Virus record (IMG/VR): IMGVR_UViG_3300006802_000178
Span: 1 to 43,209 of that record
Source: a virus
Direction: 5' to 3' (one strand)
DNA: 43,209 nucleotides
The notes beneath the pieces are model-generated. The model saw nothing but the letters and a program-made list of their open reading frames with translations. It ran no database searches and was not told the origin of the DNA. Below, in pieces: positions 14,791 to 24,880 of this stretch (its first letter is position 1; every line of letters starts with the position of its first letter). The position numbers were made by a program, and so were the translations under genes.

Positions 14791-16311
14791 ATGCCTAGCC
14801 GTGAAACATTTGCCTACAGACGCGGTGCGCAAATGCGTGCGGTTCGTGCAACTGAGCAAACTACAGATGCACTAGATTCTATCTATGGTAGAGCGTCTAA
14901 TGACTTCCATACGTTCTGTACTATTTTAGATAAAGCCCCAGCAAAGCACATGCTGGAGTGGCACCAGCACTTGATTACAGGGGAGTCCAATAAGTACCTA
15001 CTAGATATTGCTGGCCCCAACTTGGACATTCTGGCTCCTCGTGGCAGTGCGAAGTCCACCGTCCTAAACCTGTTTACCGCGTGGATTATCGGTCGTCACA
15101 CCACAGCTAAGCGACCGCTTCAGATCATTTATTGCTCGTACAACATCGCGACTGCCATTCCGAAAAGTCGGATTATTAAGCAGATCATCGACTCTCCCGA
15201 GTACCGCAAGGTCTTCCCGCGTGTTCAGCTCAGGTCGGGTATGCAATCGGATATCGGTTGGTCAATCGACTTTGATTACGCTGGTATCCCACGCCTGGGT
15301 GACGAGGAATTCACCCTTCGTGCCGCTGGTCTGAGGGGCTCGATTACGTCGAAACGCGCCCACCTCGTGATCGTGGATGACCCTATTAAGTCGAGTGCGG
15401 ACATCAAAAACCCCGCGATTCGGGAGGAGATGAACACTAACTGGTCCTCCGTTATCAGCCCGATTATCTTTGAAGGTGGTCGAGCTATTTGCCTGGGAAC
15501 CCGATTCCACCCCTTGGACATCCATAAGACAATGTTCGCTCCTGAGAAGGGTTGGAAGCAGGTCACACAGGAAGCAATCACTTACGGGGACCACGGTGAG
15601 CCTGTCAGCTACTGGCCTGAGCAGTGGTCCTCTAAGTACCTCCTGCAGCAGAAGGAACTGGATCCCGTCGCGTTTGCGTATCAGTACCAGCAACAACCCG
15701 TGATGACCACGGACCTTGTGGTCTCCCCAGATCTCCTTGTTAAGGGTGAGGTTGTTACTGAGTTCGATACGTTGGCGCTGGGCATCGACCTTTCGGCGAG
15801 TAAAAACGAGACCAGCGACTACACCGCTTTTGTATTGGGTGGTCGTCTTAAGGACAAGTACTACATCATCGATTCCCACCAGTGCCGTTCGATCGGGAAC
15901 CTGGAGAAGATCGACATGCTCTGCGACATGCTCCTGGAGTGGGGGATCCTGCAGAACTCAGACGGGATCTTCCTTCCAACGTATTCGACCATAACGTTGG
16001 TTGTTGAATCCGTCGCGTATCAAGCCTCTCTGGCAGCTGACCTTCGACGGGTGCTGATCAACGAACGGGAATTAACAAACCTTCACATCCACGAGGTCAA
16101 GGGTTTCCGAGGGGACAAGATTGCCCGCTTCAGGGGAACACTTGGTCTGCTTGAAAATAAGAAGGTGACGTTTAATAAATACCGTAAGTTCGATGCTCTG
16201 TTTGATCAGTTGATCAACGTAGGTGCTACAGCGCACGATGATATGCTGGATGCCTACACATGGCTTGTGACGTATCTGCAAAGAAGAGGAAATTTTTCAA
16301 TCGAGTACTGA
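14791..16311 (+). CDS. terL: large terminase subunit (TerL)
   Basis: 506 aa DNA-packaging motor. Walker A is APRGSAKST at 82-90, Walker B is LVIVDD at 192-197, and the coupling motif region is CLGTRFHP near 234-241. The nuclease domain starts at LGIDLSASKNETSDYTA (Asp333), with the second acidic site in HDDMLDAY near residues 483-490. It packages DNA into the prohead and cuts it. It is the first plus-strand gene after the inverted sugar operon. A candidate AT-rich promoter (TTAATATAGC) lies about 25 nt before the ATG. Confidence 0.96.
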   Translation: MPSRETFAYRRGAQMRAVRATEQTTDALDSIYGRASNDFHTFCTILDKAPAKHMLEWHQHLITGESNKYLLDIAGPNLDILAPRGSAKSTVLNLFTAWIIGRHTTAKRPLQIIYCSYNIATAIPKSRIIKQIIDSPEYRKVFPRVQLRSGMQSDIGWSIDFDYAGIPRLGDEEFTLRAAGLRGSITSKRAHLVIVDDPIKSSADIKNPAIREEMNTNWSSVISPIIFEGGRAICLGTRFHPLDIHKTMFAPEKGWKQVTQEAITYGDHGEPVSYWPEQWSSKYLLQQKELDPVAFAYQYQQQPVMTTDLVVSPDLLVKGEVVTEFDTLALGIDLSASKNETSDYTAFVLGGRLKDKYYIIDSHQCRSIGNLEKIDMLCDMLLEWGILQNSDGIFLPTYSTITLVVESVAYQASLAADLRRVLINERELTNLHIHEVKGFRGDKIARFRGTLGLLENKKVTFNKYRKFDALFDQLINVGATAHDDMLDAYTWLVTYLQRRGNFSIEY

Positions 16312-18776: not shown

Positions 18777-19622
18777 ATGCTTTTTGATTGTTTTATGTAT
18801 TTCGACGAAGCGGAGCTTTTAGAGCTTCGAGTCGAGATGCTTAAGGATGTTGTAGACGGTTTCATAATCACTGACGCAGACAGGACGTTTAAGGGTGATA
18901 AGAAGTCGTTTTCCTGCGTGGAGACGATTAGAAAATTAGGTCTGCCTGAGGACCGAATTCAGGTTCTTCACTGTGAGCTGCCCACCCCGGAAACTCACCC
19001 AAATCCATGGGTTCGGGAATACGCCCAGCGTGACGCCCTTGGGGTTGGTATGCGTATGTGTCCTCCTGATTCAGTGTTTTTCTTTAGTGATGTAGATGAG
19101 ATCCCTAAACCTTCGGCTCTGCTTGAAGCAATTGAGCTAGCCGAAGATAACCCGGATCGGTGCGTCCGCCTCTCGATGCCTATGTTTTACGGGCGAGGGG
19201 ATCTCCGCGTGATGGATCCGAACGGCGATCCAAGTAAGCCCCCGACAAATTGGACGTGCGGAACGGTCGTTTTATTCGAGCACCTCGTCGAAACACCGTC
19301 CCAGATTCGCATGAAGGACAATGGTCTCGTTCACGGAGACTGTGATGCCGGGTGGCACTTTTCCTGGATGGGTGATGCTGCTCGAATGAAGCGCAAGCTG
19401 ACTTCCTTCTCCCATTGTTACGACGTTATTCCTAACGCACACGCTCCCGCTGATAGCCAGGAAATGCTTGATTTCCTGGATTCTTATAAGGCGTCCGCTG
19501 GGGGTACTGATCCTTTAGGTCGTTGTGACCACATTTTGACCGCGTACCCTCATGACCTATTACCCGAAGAGGTGTTTAAACTAGAGAGAGTAAAGAAGTA
19601 CCTCCTTCCTAACCATGTCTGA
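18777..19622 (+). CDS. GT17 family glycosyltransferase
   Basis: 281 aa. LFDCFMYFDEAELLELRVEM at the start and SDVDEIP at 104-110 are the signatures of GT17, the family of beta-1,4-mannosyl-glycoprotein N-acetylglucosaminyltransferases. In phages and bacteria the substrates are unknown. The DVD is the likely metal-binding site. The length matches compact viral members. It stands immediately before a small basic gene and the portal. Confidence 0.88.
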   Translation: MLFDCFMYFDEAELLELRVEMLKDVVDGFIITDADRTFKGDKKSFSCVETIRKLGLPEDRIQVLHCELPTPETHPNPWVREYAQRDALGVGMRMCPPDSVFFFSDVDEIPKPSALLEAIELAEDNPDRCVRLSMPMFYGRGDLRVMDPNGDPSKPPTNWTCGTVVLFEHLVETPSQIRMKDNGLVHGDCDAGWHFSWMGDAARMKRKLTSFSHCYDVIPNAHAPADSQEMLDFLDSYKASAGGTDPLGRCDHILTAYPHDLLPEEVFKLERVKKYLLPNHV

Positions 19623-19795: not shown

Positions 19796-22042
19796 ATGGC
19801 GGACACACTCGGCGTTAAGCAACGCTTCAATGAAATCGTAGAGGCCGCCCGGAACCAGACCAAAGGGAAACAGGCGGCCACGATGGTCGTTTTGAGTCAT
19901 CTTCAGCAAATGACGCTGTTGATGATCAAGAAAGGACTGTTTTTTTACTGTGAGCAGGATACTTTCCGTTCCCGAGCCAAGTTTATAAACAGTCTTTTAG
20001 AACTAAATAAAATCGACATCCGATTTCCGTCGATTATTAGGAACTTTTTAGTTGACGGATGCGGTCTTTTTTACTTCCGCCCCGACCCCAAGCTTAAATA
20101 TCAGATTTATTTCTTCCCGAAGGATCAATACCGTGTTTTTCATGACGTAAATGGGAATATAAATGAAGTCGTAATCATTTACAGCTACAACGTACGTAAC
20201 TCGACGCTAGGCCTGCCGTCCGATTCGTACGGTTTAAACAAAAGATACGTTCGAATCTCTATTACTGAAGACACAATCTCTGAATATGAGGCGAATACAG
20301 AGCTCAGCTTCGAGTTAGAGCCCGGAGCGATCATTTCTCCGAAGAGTGCTAAGCCAAACACGCTTGGTTTTATACCTGCAGTTGAGGTTTTAAATAAACC
20401 CAATGCCAGTGGCACCGAAGGGGAGGGTGAATTCGACCCCTTCATGGAGCAAATTGTGCTTCATGACGAAATGATGCGTAATATCGCCAAAAATATTGAA
20501 TTTTTTGGCAATCCGACGCTTATCAGCTCTCGTCCCCGGTCTGATCTGGTCGAAGCAGCAGATGCTGATCGGACTTTCCGCCCCACGATCAGCAGTCAAA
20601 GCGGTTTTGGCGGTCGAGACACTCCTTCAACCCGTGTTTCGGAGCCTTTTGGCGCAAATTCGTCTCTTGGCGGTCTCCGAGTCCCTCGTGTAATCGCAAA
20701 CGTCGAACCGAGCGACCGTGTGGGCTACATGTCTCCCGACCCGATCAACGGGGACATGAATCGTTACGCATTGTTACTGCGTGAGGAGATTCGGACTGCT
20801 TTAGGCGGTGTTGATGAACTTTCTGTCTCGGCAGGTGCCACCGCGACGGAAATTAAGAGCTTGATGGGTCGCGCACAAGCGACTGCACTCCGTAAGAACA
20901 AGAGTTTCCTCACTTACGGCTTCTGTAAGTTGCTCGAGATGATTATTTATCATCAAGAGCAGGTCTTCCGAGAGAGTTTTGTTGCCGTCACTGGTTTAAA
21001 AGCTCCTAAATCACCTGAAGAGAAGACACTCGAAACTGAGAAAGAGTATTCGCAAGCTCTTAACAAGTTCGAGTCGACTGTCGATCTCGCCATTCAAGAT
21101 GCACTGAACAGCAACCAGCTGCCACCGGGTGTCTTTGGCCTTCCGCCTGACGGAGCTCGCGAAGTTTCTTATCGCTTCCAGGGTGATGTTTATGAGGATA
21201 CGGCGTATGACATTAACCAGAAATCTATCGTCGTTCGTAACCTGCAAGAGCTAGGCGTGGACAGCGTTGAGGCTCTTAAATATCTTTTCCCTGATAAGAC
21301 AGACGCAGAACGTTCTGAGATGTTGAAGGGGTTCCCTTTCCGAATGGTTCAACAAACACAGAGCGCATTCTCACAATTTTTAGTATTATTAACTCAGATG
21401 TTGCAAACGCCACATCCTTTATCACCGGATCAGCCTCTCGGGGCAGACCCGCGTCTAAACCTAACGCCCCTGTTATACAGGACGTTTGACCACCTTGCGC
21501 AAGAACTGACTTACTCGGGCAGCTATGAGCCAGCAGATCCCAGCTTCGACCCCGAGCCCGGTCTCCCCGGCGGTAGCGGCCCCTCAGGCGGCGCCCTCGG
21601 ACCAGGGCTCAACCGCCTACCCGCAGTGGGTGGCCTCTACCCAGGGGGTGCCTTCGGCAACTACAGCCCAAGCGCCGTCGCCGGTAACACCCCCTTCGGC
21701 CCCTTCTACCAGCAGCCAGTCCAACCAGTATCCGTCAACGTCCTCCCCGTCGAACCCGTGGGAAGCGGCGATGAGCAGCTTGGAGCGGGTGGTCTCCCGT
21801 ATCTCTCCGTCCCCCAGCCAGGCAGCACAGTATCCGCAGTACCAAACGGCGGCGCTGGATACTCAACAGCTCAGTCAGAATTTACAGGCCCAGCCTTGGC
21901 AAACCCAGGCCGCCTCGGATCCGCTGACCTTATCCAACAACGGATATACAACCCAGACTTCTTATCCGACTTCTACGGCGCAACAACCGCAAGCCCAAAA
22001 CCAAACTCCGGTTCTAAGCGAGGCAAGCGCAGCCGTAGTTAA
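19796..22042 (+). CDS. portal protein with overprinted C-terminal tail
   Basis: 748 aa. Residues 1-576 form the portal body: an N-terminal helical region, a beta-rich core (QIYFFPKDQYRVFHD, then VVIIYSYNV), a Leu/Glu-rich helical stem and clip (MNRYALLLREEIRTALGG) and the crown. From about 577 the sequence becomes Gly/Pro/Ser-rich with a basic end (SKRGKRSRS). That tail is read from the same DNA as the start of the scaffold gene, in another frame. The portal forms the dodecameric channel used by the terminase. The body is longer than minimal portals, and the tail adds about 172 residues. Confidence 0.88.
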   Translation: MADTLGVKQRFNEIVEAARNQTKGKQAATMVVLSHLQQMTLLMIKKGLFFYCEQDTFRSRAKFINSLLELNKIDIRFPSIIRNFLVDGCGLFYFRPDPKLKYQIYFFPKDQYRVFHDVNGNINEVVIIYSYNVRNSTLGLPSDSYGLNKRYVRISITEDTISEYEANTELSFELEPGAIISPKSAKPNTLGFIPAVEVLNKPNASGTEGEGEFDPFMEQIVLHDEMMRNIAKNIEFFGNPTLISSRPRSDLVEAADADRTFRPTISSQSGFGGRDTPSTRVSEPFGANSSLGGLRVPRVIANVEPSDRVGYMSPDPINGDMNRYALLLREEIRTALGGVDELSVSAGATATEIKSLMGRAQATALRKNKSFLTYGFCKLLEMIIYHQEQVFRESFVAVTGLKAPKSPEEKTLETEKEYSQALNKFESTVDLAIQDALNSNQLPPGVFGLPPDGAREVSYRFQGDVYEDTAYDINQKSIVVRNLQELGVDSVEALKYLFPDKTDAERSEMLKGFPFRMVQQTQSAFSQFLVLLTQMLQTPHPLSPDQPLGADPRLNLTPLLYRTFDHLAQELTYSGSYEPADPSFDPEPGLPGGSGPSGGALGPGLNRLPAVGGLYPGGAFGNYSPSAVAGNTPFGPFYQQPVQPVSVNVLPVEPVGSGDEQLGAGGLPYLSVPQPGSTVSAVPNGGAGYSTAQSEFTGPALANPGRLGSADLIQQRIYNPDFLSDFYGATTASPKPNSGSKRGKRSRS

Positions 22043-22457
22043 CCACTTCGGTATCGAAGCTCCTGCGGTTCTCAATCAGTACGCCACCACGCTGGAAGAT
22101 GCTCTGATCCAGCAGGATCAAGCTCTGAACGCAATCGGTGCCCGTTCTCAGGCCATGGAAACGATCCTTACGGATCCCGATCACCTGGCTGATTACACCA
22201 ACCGCTTCTTCACCGAAGTCTACCCCGTGGACATCGAAGCTCCTTCCCAGCCTCCCACGCAGTATCAGCCTCAGTACGATCAGATGCCTGCTGTCCCCGC
22301 AGCTTCTAGCTCTGCTTCTCGTCCCGCTGATCCTGACACCCAGTGGCAAGGCTTCAGCCAGACCATGAATCAGTCTCCTGATCAGGCTTGGCGTTATCTG
22401 TCTCAGATGTCTCCTGAAGCAATCCGTAGCAAGCTTCTCTTTATGGATGCTGGCTGA
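21525..22457 (+). CDS. scaffold protein, overlapping the portal gene
   Basis: 310 aa if started at ATG 21525. An internal ATG at 21771, with GGAAG 6 nt upstream, has the better ribosome site and would give 228 aa. The first 170 residues are Ser/Pro/Gln/Ala-rich and disordered. The rest is helical and acidic (about 170-210 LEDALIQQDQALNAIGARS, and a C-terminal WRYLSQMSPEAIRSKLLFM). A disordered start with a helical end next to portal and capsid genes is typical of scaffolding proteins. It overlaps the portal by 518 nt (272 nt from the later start) in the +1 frame. Confidence 0.78.
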   Translation: MSQQIPASTPSPVSPAVAAPQAAPSDQGSTAYPQWVASTQGVPSATTAQAPSPVTPPSAPSTSSQSNQYPSTSSPSNPWEAAMSSLERVVSRISPSPSQAAQYPQYQTAALDTQQLSQNLQAQPWQTQAASDPLTLSNNGYTTQTSYPTSTAQQPQAQNQTPVLSEASAAVVNHFGIEAPAVLNQYATTLEDALIQQDQALNAIGARSQAMETILTDPDHLADYTNRFFTEVYPVDIEAPSQPPTQYQPQYDQMPAVPAASSSASRPADPDTQWQGFSQTMNQSPDQAWRYLSQMSPEAIRSKLLFMDAG

Positions 22458-23764: not shown

Positions 23765-24880
23765 TTGTTCGTCGACAATGATTTTCCGAAGCTGCTCGGT
23801 GCGGAATTATACCGTCCCCATCCTGCGTACGTCGTAGAGATGGCCGCTGAGCCGGTCGTTGTTCACGATTTCTCGAAACAACCCGGTCAGACCGTTCAGC
23901 TCGATCGTTACCGTTTCTGGGGCAATCCCGGCTCGAAAGAGTCTCGGGAGCGCACCGCTGAGCAGACCATTGGTACTGCTAATAGCCGGAACATCGTCAA
24001 GGACAAAGTGCTCGTGACTCTTCGCGAGTACACCGGTCCTGCCGATCCGAGTGACCCCACTCAGCCCAGCACCTTCAAGATTGCTCGCGAGACACTGATC
24101 ACCGCGCAGCGTCTTCTGCTGGACACCGGCAACCTGACTGCTTTCCACCAGTCCATCGGTTCTCTGACCCTGCTCGACGACTATCGTCGTTGGCGCGATC
24201 GGGTGTTCATCAACGAACTCCTGAAAGCTGTCTCTAAAGGTCAAGCCTCCGATAGCCAAGGTGGTTACTACTACCCCGGCGATCTCGCCGTCGGTAGTCT
24301 GACCTACGCGAACGCTGAACAAGCTAAGTTCGACGTTAAGGACGACCTGCTGCGCGTGGTCAAGAGCCTGCGCAAGCGTAACGTTCCTACCTACCAGGAC
24401 GGTTTCTATCGCTGCGTTTGCGATCCGACCTTCCTGATGCACCTGCGTCAGAACAGCGACTTCCGTGAAGTTGCTCGTTATCCCGGCAACGGTCAGATCA
24501 ACCCCCTCATGTCCGCGATGCAGCCCAACGCTGCCATCTACATGGGTCAGGGCTTTGGTCAAGCCACCTTCGTGGCTGGCGAGCCGATCATGCCGACCGG
24601 TTTCGTGTTCGAGGGCGTTCGCTTCTTCGAATCCACGAACATGCCTTCTCAAAATGCGTCCGCGACCATCGGTGGTTCCGCGTCTTCTTACGAGACCGCC
24701 ATCGGTATGTTCTTCGGACCCCAGTCTGTTGGTGTGGGTATTGGCGGTAACAACGCCCAAGTCCTGCTCAACAACAATGACGACTTCAGCCGTTTCATCA
24801 TGATGATTTGGAGCCTGTACGCAGGTTTCGAACTCCTGAATGCTGATTTCGCCACCATCGCTTACTCCTTTAACGCCTGA
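23765..24880 (+). CDS. major capsid protein
   Basis: 371 aa, HK97-type shell protein, probably of the N4 gp56-like group. It starts with TTG 23765, and GGGAG lies 9 nt upstream. N-terminal FPKLLGAELYRP is followed by an E-loop-like stretch (DFSKQPGQTVQLDRYRFWG, about 35-53), a long spine helix region (ARETLITAQRLLLDTGN) and C-terminal strands. Codon choice is strongly biased to C/G-ending codons, unlike most neighbours, as expected for the most abundant virion protein. The next gene, also biased, follows by 14 nt. Confidence 0.82.
   Translation: MFVDNDFPKLLGAELYRPHPAYVVEMAAEPVVVHDFSKQPGQTVQLDRYRFWGNPGSKESRERTAEQTIGTANSRNIVKDKVLVTLREYTGPADPSDPTQPSTFKIARETLITAQRLLLDTGNLTAFHQSIGSLTLLDDYRRWRDRVFINELLKAVSKGQASDSQGGYYYPGDLAVGSLTYANAEQAKFDVKDDLLRVVKSLRKRNVPTYQDGFYRCVCDPTFLMHLRQNSDFREVARYPGNGQINPLMSAMQPNAAIYMGQGFGQATFVAGEPIMPTGFVFEGVRFFESTNMPSQNASATIGGSASSYETAIGMFFGPQSVGVGIGGNNAQVLLNNNDDFSRFIMMIWSLYAGFELLNADFATIAYSFNA

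Follow-up and report, generated by a model that had tools for sequence, protein, structure and literature searches.

The 43,209-base virus record IMGVR_UViG_3300006802_000178, referred to in its whole length as the window, contains a portal gene whose reading frame continues far beyond the structured part of its product, while a second frame on the same strand is open across the same DNA. Does this stretch encode two proteins and, if so, where does the second one start and what is it? We addressed these questions by comparison with related loci.

The locus and its two reading frames

The portal gene extends on the plus strand from an ATG at 19796 to the stop at 22042 and encodes 748 residues. 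It comprises a core of 576 residues (19796–21523) with profile matches to phrog_20475 and phrog_64, followed by a double-coded C-terminal tail of 172 codons plus stop (21524–22042), which is predicted to be disordered. The second open reading frame, also on the plus strand and +1 relative to the portal, begins with an ATG (21525–21527) within the TAT codon of portal Tyr577 and ends with a stop at 22457 (310 residues). Both frames share positions 21525–22042, i.e. 518 nt. An in-frame TGA (21507–21509) closes the +1 frame further upstream; the frame is open from 21510, 15 nt 5' of its start. These coordinates confirm those of an earlier note on this DNA, made from the sequence alone, in which the portal frame was described as open for 172 codons past the core and the +1 frame as open over 518 nt and on to 22457. 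The note had also called both products of the overlap low-complexity and the local DNA C-rich. Indeed, the portal side is rich in Gly, Pro and Ser and basic at its end, the +1 side is Ser/Ala/Gln/Pro-rich, and the GC skew across 21001–22000 is −0.147.

The gene order in the window is terminase, portal, +1 ORF, capsid. The large terminase subunit (14791–16311, plus strand) matches phrog_38 with an E-value of 2.5e-77 and the major capsid protein (23765–24880, plus strand, putative start codon) matches phrog_1357 with an E-value of 2.3e-22. A gene of glycosyltransferase family 17 (18777–19622, Pfam E-value 2.8e-16) is located between terminase and portal in this head cluster. A comparison with 50,697 phage records yielded a single match to the window, Synechococcus phage S-EIV1 (79 kb).

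The portal of the window matches phrog_20475 (virion structural protein) over residues 8–681 with an E-value of 4e-163 and phrog_64 (portal) with an E-value of 1.8e-7. One portal each from three related clades (M, N and X, see below) matched phrog_20475 and gave no match to phrog_64. The score against the Pfam family Head-tail_con was 14.8 bits, under the cut-off of 27, a profile search of the PDB with the portal gave 0 matches, and profile comparisons with the portals of T7 and P-SSP7 were not significant (E-values of 0.07 and 0.19). The assignment of the window protein as a portal is thus based mainly on its match to the portal-family profile phrog_64.

Among the relatives described below, the portal tail comprises 147–212 residues past the start site of the second frame. 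Its basic end (NSGSKRGKRSRS in the window, 22004–22039, plus strand) is a regular feature: of 212 representatives, 211 have at least three Lys or Arg within their C-terminal 12 residues, the mean being 5.9 compared to 1.3 in 12-residue segments of the core. The net charge of the whole tail ranges from about −4 to +8 (five examples). A G-x-A-D-L motif within the overlap (21917–21931, plus strand) is conserved to 100% (G), 82% (A), 98% (D) and 92% (L) in 51 sequences from five clades. AlphaFold models were poor (mean pLDDT of 46 and 40, 18 sequences each) and were used for helices and disorder only. In the low-confidence portal model the pLDDT is below 50 over residues 552–671 and 682–748, from which the tail is predicted to be disordered.

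Conservation of the overlap and selection on both frames

Searches with the window, S-EIV1, three more distant portals and a core-only portal profile yielded at least 476 loci, each viral scan contributing the best 80 of 134 to about 600 relatives. In several scans one of the six query peptides was taken from the portal tail, and such scans could preferentially recover relatives in which the tail is retained. The core-only profile is not subject to this bias, and it retrieved the overlap in 9/9 relatives from genome assemblies. The assemblies containing contigs of this lineage (loci L163–L171) are labelled Euryarchaeota, Rhodobacteraceae, Crocinitomicaceae, Blastopirellula and other bacteria; these labels are probably binning errors.

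We distinguished five S-EIV1-related clades, W (the window's own), E, M, N and X, with portal identities of 42–52% between clades; the identity of the portal core to more distant relatives is 46–52%. In a tree of portal cores a well-supported branch separates each clade from the others (51 sequences, the same set as for the motif conservation, with X represented by only two). Counts are given by representatives, because some contigs are present twice under different locus ids. The working set consists of 249 representatives (W 67, E 47, M 41, N 55, X 39), thinned by ungapped identity over the first 1,600 nt of the portal for W, E, M and N and over the 1,500 nt before the start for X. Since ungapped thinning leaves a few close rows, the counts are also given after a stricter thinning on codon alignments, which kept 239 (W 65, E 44, M 40, N 52, X 38).

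Among the best 80 relatives per scan, the +1 frame contains no stop between its start codon and the end of the portal gene in 249/249 representatives with an intact portal, and after codon-alignment thinning it is open across the overlap in 239/239, with unchanged starts and 0 closed frames in W, E, M and N. The length of the overlap ranges from 446 to 641 nt across the five clades. S-EIV1, the only named phage record found, has the same overlap with a length of 554 nt. No relative without the overlap was found among those collected (best 80 per viral scan). The portal stop is reached in 367 of 401 sequences, in one of them prematurely (L249); the other 34, as well as one of 80 X loci, were left out as partial portals. 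A portal stop near 21525 in homologues had been named as evidence against the overlap, and none was seen. The early stops in L249 (residue 211, with scaffold-frame motifs persisting downstream) and L439 (residue 108) both lie far upstream in the core rather than in the overlap, and both loci were left out. L169 was left out as well, because the start extrapolated for it met a stop codon, yet it has an open +1 frame of 548 nt, and L327 was flagged solely because its locus finishes at the portal stop.

In 83 representatives analyzed for all frames of the overlap, the +1 frame was open in 83/83 and the +2 frame in 0/83; for the three frames of the reverse strand the counts were 0, 0 and 5. When codons were drawn from the portal core with the portal residues kept fixed, 4–5% of the shuffled sequences were open in +1 (mean of 2.8–2.9 stops); when the codons of the tail itself were permuted, 0.5–3% were open. 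An open +1 frame arising by chance in one single sequence is therefore not absurd. Codon shuffling leads one to expect 2.8–3.9 stops in +1, and 0 were observed in each of the 83 representatives.

The alignment of relatives in both frames combined with an analysis of synonymous constraint, which the earlier note had suggested as a check, points to two coding frames. The frequency of differences at portal codons with the same amino acid drops from core to overlap in all clades, from 0.54 to 0.24 in W, 0.46 to 0.14 in E, 0.53 to 0.27 in M, 0.58 to 0.28 in N and 0.48 to 0.14 in X, so that portal-synonymous change is approximately 2- to 3.4-fold lower in the overlap. Third-position differences amount to 0.47–0.58 in the core of W, E, M and N, and to 0.28 (W), 0.15 (E), 0.37 (M) and 0.33 (N) in the overlap. 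There, the third position varies less than the first, which is the wobble position of the scaffold frame, in E, M and N, and slightly more in W (0.28 vs. 0.25). Substitutions are distributed differently among the codon positions in overlap and core, with p < 1e-100 in each of W, E, M and N (disjoint closest pairs).

OLGenie-like dN/dS ratios for the overlap are 0.43 (W), 0.60 (E), 0.66 (M), 0.61 (N) and 0.43 (X) in the portal frame and 0.47, 0.28, 0.47, 0.50 and 0.29, respectively, in the scaffold frame. The upper limits are below 0.8 for both frames in all five clades, and disjoint closest pairs were concordant in W, E, M and N, the clades analyzed in this way. The second-frame test is biased below 1, and its baseline is not 1. 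Applied to the portal core, which has no known second gene, the same calculation gave 0.64–0.96 for single segments of W and E. For the core taken as a whole, W, E, M and N had values of 0.81–0.85 with all pairs (X 0.76) and of 0.72–0.79 with disjoint pairs. The ratios below 1 are thus in part due to the method, as control DNA from the core also gives 0.64–0.96; the scaffold-frame ratios of the overlap are 1.7- to 2.9-fold below the all-pairs core controls. The +2 frame of the overlap, used as a further control, gave 1.97 in W and 2.25 in E. In single segments of 41–42 codons some intervals reach 1, namely 0.27–1.14 and 0.34–1.01 in central segments of W for the scaffold frame, and 0.33–1.23 and 0.36–1.00 (W) and 0.32–1.13 (E) for the portal frame. 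The portal dN/dS of 0.43–0.66 in the overlap is far above the 0.03–0.07 of the core, and the tail is therefore only weakly constrained as a protein, most so in E and M. Judged from these substitution patterns, both frames, which are open throughout, are under purifying selection in every clade.

The start site of the second reading frame

In W the start is an ATG in 67/67 representatives and in X in 78/78 loci, and across W, E, M and N it is kept as ATG or GTG in 210/210 representatives. The Tyr codon carrying the start in W is TAT in all 67, compared to 53% TAT among the Tyr codons of the core. In E, M, N and two X representatives (n = 145) the sequence is either TAT-GCA-G, which contains an ATG (101 cases; E, N and the two X), or TAC-AGT-G, which contains a GTG one codon further on (44 cases; M and three N), and a combination without a start was found 0 times. 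Tyr is hence encoded by TAC only where the following codons supply a GTG. Relative to the portal motif, the starts of E, M, N and X are located three to four codons earlier than that of W.

Three clades carry a Shine-Dalgarno sequence 5' of the start and inside the portal gene: AAAAGGAG in E, AAGGAG in M and AAAAAGAGG in X. AAGGAG or AAAGAGG is invariant at this position among the E, M and X representatives, and the portal Lys and Glu codons at the site are fixed as AAG and GAG in E and M. Pairing energies with the anti-Shine-Dalgarno sequence, calculated for W, E, M and N, average −8.0 in E and −7.4 in M, values which are reached by 2.1% and 1.4% of the other internal ATG/GTG sites, respectively. 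The means are −2.7 in W and −3.2 in N; a clear Shine-Dalgarno sequence is absent from both clades, and 32% of internal ATG/GTG sites score no worse. The view expressed in the earlier note that 21525 has no ribosome site thus applies to W, but three related clades have a clear site, and 8 of the 19 listed starts in the window (21525 and 21771 included) pair more weakly than 21525. As only three of these 19 positions pair below −9, the weak site at 21525 says little.

Folding of 20 sequences per clade indicated a weakly structured start region in W, M and N and not in E. An RNA hairpin at the W start (CTCGGG/CCCGAG) was considered and rejected: its halves are near-invariant, but they are paired in the minimum-energy fold of only 2/7 W sequences. 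A Ser codon 8–10 nt 5' of the ATG (21515–21517 in the window) is TCG in 67/67 W representatives, and TCG accounts for 16% of the Ser codons in the core. This invariant codon is a possible signal for initiation without a Shine-Dalgarno sequence.

The earlier note had left the overlap at either 518 or 272 nt, the shorter value resulting if the second protein started at the ATG at 21771–21773 (plus strand), for which it saw a better ribosome site. The pairing energy in the window is indeed slightly better there (−4.2 vs. −2.5 at 21525). As a start, however, 21771 does not hold up, being an ATG in 53 of 67 W representatives and in 0 of 142 representatives of E, M and N with the motif found (one M representative is without it). 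Moreover, the scaffold frame of W is most constrained 5' of 21771, with a dN/dS of 0.18 (0.09–0.28) for codons 1–41, and a start of the 21525 type is kept in every representative. We consider initiation at 21771 highly improbable and, from the conservation of the upstream codon, place the start of the second ORF at 21525, which sets the overlap at 518 nt rather than 272 nt.

A fusion by frameshift or a sequence indel had been raised as further alternatives. In the former case a programmed +1 frameshift would join the portal core to the scaffold, and 21525 would be unused as a start. The opening of the +1 frame 15 nt before the ATG provides a region where a shift could occur, and W and N are without a clear Shine-Dalgarno sequence. 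Yet a separate start codon is retained in all representatives, accompanied by a Shine-Dalgarno sequence in E, M and X, and GTG takes the place of ATG one codon on where Tyr is encoded by TAC; in addition, inspection by eye revealed no common slippery run in the start contexts, and the portal tail itself is under selection. This makes a programmed frameshift very unlikely. As for a chance open frame or a sequencing indel with one coding frame only, the DNA is C-rich and of low complexity, and some synonymous shuffles are open, as described above. Representatives from many assemblies all have the open frame, though, as does S-EIV1, a cultured isolate; both frames are under selection and each has its conserved motifs, so that the probability left to an artefact is close to nil.

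The second protein and a proposed mechanism

The product of the +1 frame is acidic, with a pI of 4.1 in the window and a median of 4.1 (range 4.1–7.0, n = 196), and has a length of approximately 305–345 residues by clade median. Its N-terminal half is rich in Ser, Ala, Gln and Pro and contains within the overlap an N-P-W-E/Q motif (21753–21764, plus strand), in which N is conserved to 94%, P to 100% and W to 96% (51 sequences from five clades). The single-coded C-terminal part (22043–22457, plus strand) is the most conserved and comprises invariant residues and predicted helices (residues 270–283, 285–294 and 297–308; block pLDDT of 76–82 for residues 271–300). According to these predictions the N-terminal half would be disordered and the C-terminal part helical.

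Homology searches gave little. No match to PHROG was obtained, all Pfam matches were below the curated cut-offs (best CCDC53, E-value 6.5e-4), profile searches of the PDB returned nothing useful, and PF05396, the family of T7-type scaffolds, matched neither the window nor the S-EIV1 product. A comparison with gp9 of T7 and P-SSP7 by hhalign resulted in a probability of 0.1%, i.e. no homology. A capsid homologue downstream (W and E queries) was observed in 111/132 loci of W, 64/71 of E, 2/4 of X, 4/61 of M and 0/71 of N. The M cases are 3.4–3.8 kb off, and many M and N loci may be too short to tell. The product thus has the features of a scaffold, i.e. a position between portal and capsid (unconfirmed for the capsid side in M and N), acidic character and a predicted helical C-terminal part. 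Position, charge, size and predicted layout also agree with the name given in the earlier note, for which no homologue was found, and together they indicate that the product is probably a head scaffold.

Alternatively, the overlap could be real and the second protein could have a different role in the head, for example as an internal or completion protein. The failure to detect homology to known scaffolds would fit this reading, as would the small ORFs that also lie between the +1 ORF and the capsid gene and the scarcity of downstream capsid genes among the often short M and N loci. On the other hand, the gene order in the window and an acidic protein of T7-type scaffold size with the predicted layout described above argue for a scaffold, and we regard another head protein as rather unlikely.

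Known phages provide partial parallels. The order portal, scaffold, capsid is that of T7 and P-SSP7 (gp8/gp9). The portals of these phages (536 and 522 residues) are close in length to the core of 576 residues and are without comparable extra length; the gap between portal and scaffold is 99 nt in T7, and the two genes overlap by 1 nt in P-SSP7. Their scaffolds comprise 307 and 265 residues, compared to 310 for the candidate. The gene for the internal scaffolding protein of phiX174, B, lies in another frame inside gene A, and the candidate scaffold is likewise read in a second frame from the DNA of a different gene. In contrast to this nested gene of a 5.4-kb ssDNA microvirus, the present overlap is partial, involves the portal and is found in a lineage of tailed dsDNA phages. 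In lambda the scaffold Nu3 starts inside the protease gene C; there, too, a scaffold arises by internal initiation within an upstream head gene, but in the same frame, whereas the frames differ here. The nested lysis genes Rz and Rz1 of lambda are a functional out-of-frame overlap in a tailed dsDNA phage, which is much shorter. Dual-coding overlaps are known; an out-of-frame form joining portal and scaffold did not appear among the titles and beginnings of abstracts that were searched, mostly of freely accessible papers.

Based on the comparative analysis, we consider it very likely that portal and +1 frame form a true, long, same-strand, out-of-frame overlap, as proposed in the earlier note, and that the +1 product is separately initiated at 21525 and is most likely the scaffold. 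In the mechanism we propose, ribosomes starting at 19796 would synthesize the portal core followed by a disordered tail of about 170 residues with a basic patch at its end. Other ribosomes would initiate at 21525, where the conserved core finishes, and translate the +1 frame into an acidic protein of about 310 residues. The portal is present in 12 copies. Internal initiation would decouple the second protein from it and may allow larger amounts. Both disordered segments would face the interior of the procapsid. A review (PMC8227390) cites studies proposing that disorder makes viral gene overlaps tolerable, and disorder on both sides may do so for a shared portal and scaffold sequence. The shared DNA might even encode both sides of one contact inside the procapsid, in which the basic patch terminating the disordered portal tail meets the acidic, disordered N-terminus of the scaffold; we regard this as doubtful. 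If it were true, one stretch of DNA would connect the portal vertex with the scaffold responsible for its placement, and a change in either partner would be imposed on the other.

Gene overlap in viruses has been reported to be more common in short genomes (PMC4875738). A lack of genome space is unlikely to be the cause here, because the overlap sits in tailed dsDNA phages (79 kb in S-EIV1) and has persisted through divergence: approximately 500 nt appear dual-coded in two head genes, an arrangement that outlasted the divergence of the portals to about or below 50% identity. With hundreds of sequences and a cultured phage, the lineage offers a natural system in which the sharing of one DNA by two proteins can be measured.

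With regard to the origin of the overlap, the length of the portal compared to those of T7 and P-SSP7 suggests that the tail is a later addition. Codon usage was tried as an indicator of the ancestral frame and rejected, since the clades disagree. The scaffold frame fits the codon usage of the portal core better than the portal tail does in W (−0.084 vs. −0.120) and slightly better in N (−0.065 vs. −0.074), whereas the tail fits better in E and M.

The overlap also illustrates how annotation can truncate a head gene. In the S-EIV1 record KJ410740.1 (L002) the conserved frame extends from 59287 to 60264, is preceded by a strong ribosome site and encodes 325 residues. The second CDS in GenBank starts at 59863, past the portal stop, and comprises 133 residues, so that the overlap is unannotated and 192 residues are missed. 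The major capsid protein of S-EIV1 corresponds to a plus-strand ORF of 383 residues (L002:8311–9462, record 60859–62010), whereas the annotation of the record at this place consists of one CDS on the minus strand and a short one on the plus strand. Long antisense ORFs cover the capsid genes of both phages (window 23807–24760, minus strand, 317 residues; S-EIV1 L002:8236–9381, minus strand, 381 residues) and possibly reflect mere codon bias.
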